A stretch of DNA of 64,000 nt, taken from assembly GCA_026418535.1 (NCBI GenBank), contig JAOABC010000006.1:62001-126000 (forward strand), written 5' to 3'. This DNA comes from Hydrogenothermaceae bacterium (GTDB taxonomy: Bacteria > Aquificota > Aquificia > Aquificales > Hydrogenothermaceae). Below the pieces are notes generated by a model, which saw only the letters and a list, made by a program, of their open reading frames with translations, was not told where the DNA came from and did not search any database. The translations under genes were made by a program, and so were the position numbers. Shown here one piece after another: positions 50,606-64,000 of the stretch (position 1 is its first letter; each line of letters starts with the position of its first letter).

Positions 50606-51043
50606 ATGTCTAAGATAAAGATTCCGGAAGGCTATAAGACTACAAAGCAGAGAAAGGCTATAATACAGCTCCTAGAGGAGAACATCACTCCTTTACACGC
50701 TGAGGAGATATACTTAAAGCTCAAGGAGAAAGGTATTGACCTTAGTCTCTCTACAGTCTACAGGAATCTTGATATGTTACAGAAACAGGGGATTGTGGTA
50801 AAAGCTTATATGTTGAATGAGGATAAGGCTCGTTTTGGACTAGCATCTAAGAAGAACTACCTTGTATGTCAGAGCTGTAAAAAGATAGTAATCATAGATA
50901 ACTGCCCTTTTGAGAAGTTTAAAGAGGAGCTGATAGAGGTCCACGGATTTGATATCCTCGGTCATAGTATAGAGGTATACGGTATATGTCCAGAGTGTAA
51001 GGAGAAATTATCTAAAAACTCGGAAAGCTCTAAAGATAGATAG
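50606..51043 (+). CDS. Fur-family metalloregulator
   Basis: This 145-residue protein has the Fur winged helix (TTKQRKAIIQLLEEN, LSLSTVYRNLDMLQKQGIV) and the structural zinc site with two C-x2-C pairs (CQSC and CPEC). The usual His-rich stretch before the first pair (HHHH-C) is replaced by SKKNYLVC. The C-terminal HSIEVYGIC His is kept. The regulatory metal site may therefore differ from Fur, Zur and PerR. Its tail overlaps the convergent membrane gene by 36 bases. Confidence 0.85.
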   Translation: MSKIKIPEGYKTTKQRKAIIQLLEENITPLHAEEIYLKLKEKGIDLSLSTVYRNLDMLQKQGIVVKAYMLNEDKARFGLASKKNYLVCQSCKKIVIIDNCPFEKFKEELIEVHGFDILGHSIEVYGICPECKEKLSKNSESSKDR

Positions 51044-61772: not shown

Positions 61773-62260
61773 AACTATACTTTCTACTTTTACTATCCGT
61801 CCTCTTATCTAAATTTACCGGTCTGTATATCTTTACTTTCTTAGTTTTAGTGTCTCCTCTGATTTTCTTAGAACAGGATAGGCTTGAATTTAAGAGTATC
61901 TGGAGTTTTTCAGTTTTTCTTTTAGTTCCTTTCCTTTTGTTCCTTGAGTTTGAGTATGTTTTGTCTTTACTTTTACTAGCCTTTGCTGAGGAGCTCTTCT
62001 TCCGGGGTTATCTCCTGAAGTTATACTCAAACTTAACTGTCTCCCTCCTCTTTACATTACCCCACATCATCCTGTACACAGATATACATAGCATACTTAC
62101 CTTTTTCCCATCTTTACTGTTTGGGTTTCTTTATGAGAGGACAAAGAATTTGCCTTTAGTAAGTGTAGTCCACTTTATCTCTAACGTTATGTACGATAAA
62201 CTTCTACCTGTTCTCCTACCTGAACTTTTAAAGTCTCTCTTAAACTTCCCCTTGGGATAA
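61769..62260 (+). CDS. CPBP-family intramembrane metalloprotease
   Basis: This 163-residue membrane protein has the CAAX-protease/CPBP motifs EELFFRGYLL, LPHIILYT and HFISNVMYD, supplying the Glu and His metal ligands. The start is TTG. The last 74 bases overlap, tail to tail, with the SAM-hydrolase gene on the other strand, which is unusual. Confidence 0.85.
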   Translation: MKLYFLLLLSVLLSKFTGLYIFTFLVLVSPLIFLEQDRLEFKSIWSFSVFLLVPFLLFLEFEYVLSLLLLAFAEELFFRGYLLKLYSNLTVSLLFTLPHIILYTDIHSILTFFPSLLFGFLYERTKNLPLVSVVHFISNVMYDKLLPVLLPELLKSLLNFPLG

Positions 62261-62954
62261 ATAGTTCATAAAATCCAAAACTTCCCTTTATCAAGTTTGG
62301 TCTCTCTTCCTTTCCTTCCAAAAAGTTATTACATAAAGTGTCTATCTCAAAACCTTTAAATCTGACTTTAAACTTAGATGGTAACGACTCTAAGTTCGTT
62401 ACAGCATTTCCAAACCTATCAAACTTAAGAACTTTTCCTATTATTCTGTCTTCTTCTTTCTTTGGCTCTAAATTTTCTATTTTCACTATATGTTGGAGCT
62501 CTTTCCCAAAATTATGAAGAGGTTCCCCTTTTGATATGTACCCTACAACTGGAGCAAATATATCTCTACCATGAAAGGTGTTGGTGTCTGTTTTTAAAAA
62601 GTAATCTCTATTAGTTATACTGATGATACTTTCTATCATCTCTTCTTTCAATGGAAGGGTTAAAAGACCATTATCTGGAGACACAAAGATGTATTTACTG
62701 GTCTTTACTATTATCGCTTTCCTGTCTGTCCCGACTCCAGGGTCTACTACAGATAAGAATACAGTACCTGTTGGGAAGTATCTATACGTGGACTTTAGGA
62801 TAAGGGATGCTTCTAAGATGTCAAACGGTTCGATTTCATGGGATATATCTACTATGGTGATGTTTGGATTTATAGATAGCATTACTCCTTTAACAGCCCC
62901 CACAAAACCGTCTTTTGTTCCAAAGTCGGTTAGGAGGGCTACCACTTGAGCCAT
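62187..62954 (-). CDS. SAM hydroxide adenosyltransferase (DUF62 family)
   Basis: This 255-residue protein belongs to the family of the fluorinase and chlorinase that converts S-adenosylmethionine plus hydroxide to adenosine and methionine. ALLTDFGTKDGFVGAVKGVML, VVDPGVGT, FVSPDNGLLT and FHGRDIFAPV are the conserved motifs. It lies 2 bases after ompH in a minus-strand group. The long 3' overlap with the CPBP gene lies in its C-terminal portion. Confidence 0.9.
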   Translation of the reverse strand: MAQVVALLTDFGTKDGFVGAVKGVMLSINPNITIVDISHEIEPFDILEASLILKSTYRYFPTGTVFLSVVDPGVGTDRKAIIVKTSKYIFVSPDNGLLTLPLKEEMIESIISITNRDYFLKTDTNTFHGRDIFAPVVGYISKGEPLHNFGKELQHIVKIENLEPKKEEDRIIGKVLKFDRFGNAVTNLESLPSKFKVRFKGFEIDTLCNNFLEGKEERPNLIKGSFGFYELFIPRGSLRETLKVQVGEQVEVYRT

Positions 62955-62956
62955 AT

Positions 62957-63406
62957 CTACTTTATCTTTTCACCTTTTTCGTAGTTTGAGTCAAAGTACT
63001 TAAGAAACTCATCTGTCTTATCTAGCTCTGGTTTCCCGAAGAGGACAGCTTGCTTGTCTATTATTATTGAGTAACCCTTAGCTTTTCCATAAGATTCTAG
63101 ATTTTCCTGAACTATCTTCATAAACTTCTGAAGTAGTTCATCTCTTTTCTTTAAAACCTCTTGCTGTTTGTTTATTGCAAAAGCTTGAAACTCTTCCTGA
63201 GACTTTTGGTCATTTTTCAGAACTTTCTGCTTTGCTTCTACTTCAGATTGGGCCTTCTTTCCAACTTCCTCTAAAATCCCTTGGGCATCTTTACCTGCTT
63301 TTGACTGGTTCACTACAACTTGAACATCAATAAAAACTACTTCAGCAGCTTTTGAGTATCCAAACATAAATAGGACCACAAACAATAATGCTGTCAATCT
63401 TCTCAT
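62957..63406 (-). CDS. OmpH/Skp-family periplasmic chaperone
   Basis: This 149-residue protein has a signal peptide (RRLTALLFVVLFMFGYSKAA) and begins VVFIDVQVVVNQSKAG, typical of Skp/OmpH. A long charged helical hairpin with heptads follows, and the C-terminal YSIIIDKQAVLFG closes the domain. Skp holds unfolded outer-membrane proteins. The leader has a short AATTTTC/GAAAATT hairpin just before a GGAGGAG site. Confidence 0.9.
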   Translation of the reverse strand: MRRLTALLFVVLFMFGYSKAAEVVFIDVQVVVNQSKAGKDAQGILEEVGKKAQSEVEAKQKVLKNDQKSQEEFQAFAINKQQEVLKKRDELLQKFMKIVQENLESYGKAKGYSIIIDKQAVLFGKPELDKTDEFLKYFDSNYEKGEKIK

Positions 63407-63449: not shown

Positions 63450-64000
63450 CTACTCTATCGTGCATACACTTTCTGGTCTCTTTATCCGGAGGGCCAATAT
63501 CTCAAAGACTCTAAAGTAATGGTCCATGTTGTCGTAGTTGTGATATGCTGTTATCATATCTTGGGATATAAATAGGTCCATGTTCTCTATACCTGTGGCT
63601 ACTGCCACCGCAGATTGTTGTGGGATAACCGGTGTAGTAAATACTCCCACATCGAATAGTTTTTTAATCTGGTCTATTTCCAGTATTCCGGAGTTACCGT
63701 AAAGTCTATGGAGCATGGCAAAATCTTTTGGATTTAAGATAAGGGCAAAATTTGAGTAAAATCCACTTTCATTTAGCTTAACCACTGCAGAGAGTATGTT
63801 AGAGAAAGCCTCTCCAACACTATTCCAATCAGACAGGTTTACTGTGTTTCTACCAGGGGCATTTAAAAGACCGTAGAATCCGGATTCTACATCTCCATGA
63901 AAGATCAGTTTATCTTCAGCTATAGATACTTGATGAGCTGCAGTTGCAGGTATACTTAGGTCTAAAGGTAATCCCATTTTGCTTGCAGTCTCTATATCCC
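63450..64000 (-). CDS. Family 1 encapsulin shell protein, N-terminal part cut by the window edge
   Basis: The frame is open to the last base, so the N-terminus lies outside. The visible 183 or so residues match the C-terminal two-thirds of encapsulins: AAHQVSIAEDKLIFHGD with GFYGLLNAPGRNTV, then FALILNPKDFAMLHRLYG, and DLFISQDMITAYHNYDNMDHYFRVFE, the HK97-like fold. Encapsulins self-assemble into about 24-42 nm protein cages that store enzymes such as DyP peroxidase or ferritin-like proteins. The cargo gene would be beyond the window. ompH and the SAM-hydrolase gene follow downstream. Confidence 0.88.
   Translation of the reverse strand, partial: DIETASKMGLPLDLSIPATAAHQVSIAEDKLIFHGDVESGFYGLLNAPGRNTVNLSDWNSVGEAFSNILSAVVKLNESGFYSNFALILNPKDFAMLHRLYGNSGILEIDQIKKLFDVGVFTTPVIPQQSAVAVATGIENMDLFISQDMITAYHNYDNMDHYFRVFEILALRIKRPESVCTIE

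Follow-up and report, generated by a model that had tools for sequence, protein, structure and literature searches.

Family 1 encapsulin of a Hydrogenothermaceae bacterium and its candidate trans-encoded, probably haem-binding tandem ferritin cargo

Which cargo is enclosed by the encapsulin whose gene leaves this locus at its right edge, and where is that cargo encoded? The window, by which we mean the whole stretch of 64,000 nucleotides that was analysed, corresponds to C26:62001-126000 of a genome that is 99.94% complete. The C-terminal 182 codons of the shell gene occupy 63450..64000 on the (-) strand, with the boundary at 63450 exactly where the earlier note had placed it. The 182-aa open frame at 63450-63998 (-) scored 172.4 bits with the NCBIfam model of the family 1 encapsulin shell, NF041155 (cut-off 100 bits), and 132 bits with Pfam Linocin_M18 (cut-off 24.3 bits). 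Extension past position 64000 completed the gene as a 278-aa ORF (C26:125450-126286, or 63450-64286 (-) in window numbering) with AGGAGG preceding its ATG, and the encapsulin model continued to the N-terminal side: the full protein reached 260.5 bits with NF041155 over residues 4-277, spanning nearly the whole model, and matched a solved encapsulin at E=2.8e-75. The gene cut off by the window edge thus encodes a genuine family 1 encapsulin shell protein, as had been claimed from its C-terminus, and the thermophile lineage assumed for the host was also right, the organism being a hot-spring bacterium of the Aquificota, Hydrogenothermaceae. The nearest solved shells (9i8e, Myxococcus xanthus EncA and 6nj8) gave 217-257 bits against the shell of the window genome, and that of T. 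maritima about 58 bits. For several of the closer solved entries 3 or 4 chains are given, a number that, taken by itself, would be compatible with T=3 or T=4 shells.

The neighbours of the shell gene are non-viral. Upstream lie ispD and a gene for a P-type ATPase, beyond which the contig soon ends, while an OmpH-like gene (62957..63406 (-)) stands directly downstream on the same strand and a SAM hydroxide adenosyltransferase gene (62187..62954 (-)) comes second. No portal or terminase gene was recognised among these ordinary chromosomal neighbours, the very phage context that had been named in advance as refuting an encapsulin. Together with encapsulin scores far above the cut-offs and homologues of the shell in 74 of 136 Aquificota genomes, this makes it a negligible prospect that the gene is part of a prophage and encodes an HK97-type major capsid protein, even though the HK97 fold is common to encapsulins, phage capsid families were weakly matched by the shell protein and eight phage records match it at 22-27% identity (a scan of viral contigs with the shell protein gave one match, of 23%). 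The cargo had been expected directly upstream of the shell gene, where ispD and the P-type ATPase gene were found instead. No cargo gene adjoins the encapsulin on the downstream side either, with the neighbours examined up to the contig end, so the arrangement with cargo beside shell, usual for family 1 encapsulins but not obligatory, does not hold in the window genome. Judging by its sequence, which carries no loading peptide, the OmpH-like neighbour is not a cargo; such a gene likewise lies 3' of the encapsulin in genera g1, g4, g9 and g10.

With the tandem ferritin-like protein of operon-type relatives as query, a homologue with 59% identity was found in the window genome on another contig (C11:295261-296172, 315 aa as called). 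It ends in AFTVGSLFKKGG; the predicted C-terminal targeting peptide on a ferritin-like protein is therefore present, but on contig C11. Between the gene and the nearer contig end lie ∼20 kb, and as C11 and C26 are separate contigs, the spacing of shell and cargo is not fixed by the assembly. In two relatives assembled as a single contig each (G099 and G097), a distance of 0.5 Mb or more separates shell and cargo, either way round. The closest solved relative of the cargo is the PDB entry 9viw, 'Bacterioferritin' (306 aa, 4 chains listed), which matches residues 13-289 of the window-genome protein with 132.6 bits, and whose C-terminal 139 residues, including the tail FTIGGL, are identical to a protein of genome G058 (family f2). 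This homology and the second of two Rubrerythrin matches, which falls below the cut-off, point to two four-helix bundles; both Rubrerythrin matches of the genome lie inside the tandem protein. With the bacterioferritin equivalog TIGR00754 the protein scored 27 bits against a cut-off of 125.55, and with the EncB family model 35.8 bits against a cut-off of 90 bits. By its sequence, it has the features of a dedicated family 1 cargo with a C-terminal loading peptide.

The Ferritin profile search of the window genome matched the tandem protein only. Since no other ferritin-family protein was found in the organism, the encapsulin and the tailed tandem ferritin are probably its iron store. The bacterioferritin-associated ferredoxin was not found in the window genome, and hence the usual partner for iron release is absent, a point against this reading. 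The earlier note had left the choice between iron-storing and peroxidase cargo; the former is the best candidate, while Dyp_perox_N had no match in the 136 Aquificota genomes (0/136), which excludes a DyP cargo at the sensitivity used.

Support for the pairing comes from the tail and from other genomes. Of 47 cargo proteins, 43 carry the motif [TS][VI]G.[LI] within their last 16 residues. Among 611 other ORFs with a length of 100 aa or above, taken from the window and from those fetched loci that span no less than 5 kb, none has it there; the tail of the cargo is therefore not chance. In the four exceptions, the motif stands slightly further in (G066 and G051), gives way to SVGKP at the end (G018) or is out of frame (G074). 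Encapsulin neighbourhoods of up to 18 kb were fetched for 20 of the 74 encapsulin genomes. In 8 Aquificota genomes of genera g2, g5 and g14 the encapsulin is followed directly by the gene of the ∼310-aa tandem protein, in every case with a TVGSL-type tail; adjacency was established by reading the neighbours in G068, G077 and G069 (Hydrogenothermaceae, g2 and g5) and G030 (g14, family f2), and by coordinates in G066, G067, G033 and G031. In the Firmicute Thermosediminibacter, the gene immediately upstream of the encapsulin codes for a cargo homologue whose C-terminus reads FTIGSL followed by a few more residues.

Cargo and shell also occur together. Counted by hand from matches at E below 1e-15, the cargo is present in 71 of the 74 genomes with an encapsulin, the other three being at most 87% complete, and in 4 of the 62 without one (G074, G098, G100 and G041), where two of the four copies are damaged; the Fisher value of 1e-29 comes from related and hence not independent genomes. 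That the tandem protein tracks the shell in this way, and adjoins its gene in two phyla, makes it improbable that the tandem ferritin is a secondary cargo and the real or main one a different protein whose loading peptide went undetected. A partial DNA pattern scan of the window genome for TVGxL tails, in which 48 of 102 sites were read (the first 30, and after them the sites where position 2 is V/I and position 4 is S/D/N/G/A), could miss divergent peptides or untagged proteins, yet within the sites read no protein other than the tandem ferritin had a convincing C-terminal tag; the lack of DyP across the Aquificota speaks against another main cargo as well.

The tandem ferritin might also form a cytosolic cage of its own, its tail serving mainly another purpose, or be encapsulated only in part. 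A 12-mer cage has been modelled for a Bfr-like FLP (2024 review, PMC11202242), and G100 (89% complete) and G041 (94%) carry a tailed cargo with no shell gene detected. We consider this quite unlikely, as the tail is kept in genus g20 despite a diverged bundle 2 and is out of frame in G074, where no shell gene was detected. As to the two damaged copies, the frame of the cargo in G074 (L075/L100) changes just before the loading peptide, and that in G098 (L139) is a fragment with a stop; in both genomes, which have no detected encapsulin, a sequencing error is possible.

In family f1 none of the 15 encapsulin genomes has a strong match to a conventional ferritin, while 17 other genomes have one (Fisher 3e-5 by our own count, with related genomes that are not independent). 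Family f2 breaks this exclusion, with both proteins in G036, G037 and G047. Many f2 genomes also show a third ferritin-family match. FastTree trees from 42 paired shells and cargos are broadly similar and recover the same main groups, namely f1, f2 (g14 excepted) and, nested in f1, a clade of g2, g5 and g14 that has a support of 0.99-1.0 in each tree. Their inner branching differs in places, for instance for f1 genera, g11 and g18, where support is often low. Genus g14 (G030/L045, G033/L019 and G031/L020), which belongs to family f2 by taxonomy, has an f1-type shell and cargo, and its position within f1 in both trees suggests joint movement; a horizontal transfer of shell and cargo together into this genus is probable.

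How the cargo might handle iron can be read from residue conservation in an alignment of the 47 cargo proteins. E27, E57, H60, E101, E131 and H134 of bundle 1 are invariant (47/47), with roles assigned by analogy, and match the di-iron site pattern of bacterioferritin. Bundle 2 is variable at positions 174 and 206, and its di-iron centre appears from the sequence to be degenerate. A complete ferroxidase site in bundle 1 next to a variable bundle 2 is the sequence pattern of the Bfr-like (Flp+Flp) cargos. Two methionines, M58 and M207, are likewise invariant in 47/47 cargos, and M207 is kept even in g20, where H209 is lost. In the g20 cargos (L136 and L137; G059 and G061), H209 is changed to L and H280 to F, and both methionines and the loading peptide are kept. 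With phmmer, M58 aligned to the Met of the EMxH motif in 9qq4 and in 5d8x (a 'Ferroxidase' entry), and the residue of the G058 protein that corresponds to M207 to the same Met of 9qq4, the Met of EMDH, which counting in the alignment places at residue 50. A Met in the ExxH motif occurs in some non-haem ferritins, too. In 9qq4, Met50 is the axial ligand of coprohaem, and this haem methionine is described as absent from ferritin family members outside mBfr and Bfr (PMC13168243). At the bundle interface, M58 and M207 thus occupy the place of the haem methionine of bacterioferritins, and haem binding by the cargo is by this analogy a reasonable prediction.

We propose, with a probability of roughly 0.83, that the shell is that of an iron-storage encapsulin and that its cargo is a fused bacterioferritin, encoded in trans, probably able to bind haem and docked by its C-terminal peptide. 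The two fused four-helix ferritin-type bundles would be a covalent version of the bacterioferritin dimer, held inside the shell by the tail. Fe2+ would enter via the shell pores and be oxidised at bundle 1, and ferric mineral would gather in the shell lumen. Since each bundle keeps the methionine that in bacterioferritins binds haem at the two-fold interface, a single haem would be expected where the halves meet, ligated from each side, and may carry electrons for iron release. That the degenerate bundle of the fused Bfr dimer is kept for an intramolecular bis-methionine haem, in a haem-wired trans-encoded store that replaces conventional ferritin, goes a step further, and there we see the chances as even.

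This cargo class is already known, so that the suggestion of a new system finds no support. Bfr-like (Flp+Flp) cargo of family 1 encapsulins was predicted in a small number of Aquificae (Andreas and Giessen 2021, PMC8346489; 2024 review, PMC11202242). The 2021 paper also calls the shell-within-a-shell logic of the class unknown, and the review models a Bfr-like FLP and notes that a single ferroxidase centre, that of the first bundle, is conserved. Those systems share with ours the family 1 shell, the two four-helix bundles, the C-terminal targeting peptide and the occurrence in Aquificae. They differ in that here the shell and cargo genes are far apart, on different contigs, and that roughly half of the 136 Aquificota genomes searched have the pair, instead of the small number published. 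What we add is this separation of the two genes and how widely they occur in Aquificota, measured against the main text of the surveys, whose supplements may list some of the same genomes; haem methionines in both bundles have no mention in the portions of text consulted from PMC8346489 and PMC11202242. The short haem-binding Bfr Mper-mBfr (9qq4) resembles the cargo in that both cargo bundles align to it with Met at Met50, but it is a single bundle, forms a 12-mer and holds its haem between two chains, and encapsulin is not mentioned in its paper (PMC13168243). M. xanthus EncA is among the closest solved shells (E=3e-74) and also has ferritin-like iron-storage cargo, EncB/EncC; EncB-type cargos are, however, short single-domain FLPs, in contrast to the tandem protein, which stays below the EncB cut-off.

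The partner lies elsewhere in most Aquificota genomes examined, which suggests that searches restricted to the neighbours of shell genes miss real cargo, and some encapsulins that earlier surveys list as unassigned may be served by partners encoded in trans. In this deep-branching thermophile, the only apparent iron store of the ferritin family would moreover be an encapsulin, and the predicted haem site at M58 and M207 is now testable for the Bfr-like cargo class.

Some observations concern gene context and regulation. In three f2 genomes (G029, G051 and G036; L092, L093 and L094) the cargo gene is flanked by one gene of ∼555 codons and another of ∼190 codons, in what looks like a conserved cluster. 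Perfect palindromes such as TAATAATCATTATTA stand just upstream of the encapsulin in G068, G077 and G069 (L042, L043 and L044). They resemble Fur/PerR boxes and precede the ribosome-binding region by a short distance in these operon-type lineages, with an AT-richness that makes chance likely for single cases. By eye, no shared promoter palindrome was seen for the split shell and cargo genes of the window genome and its near relatives. The window also encodes a Fur-family regulator at 50606-51043 (+) (Pfam FUR, 91.6 bits), a candidate iron or peroxide regulator.
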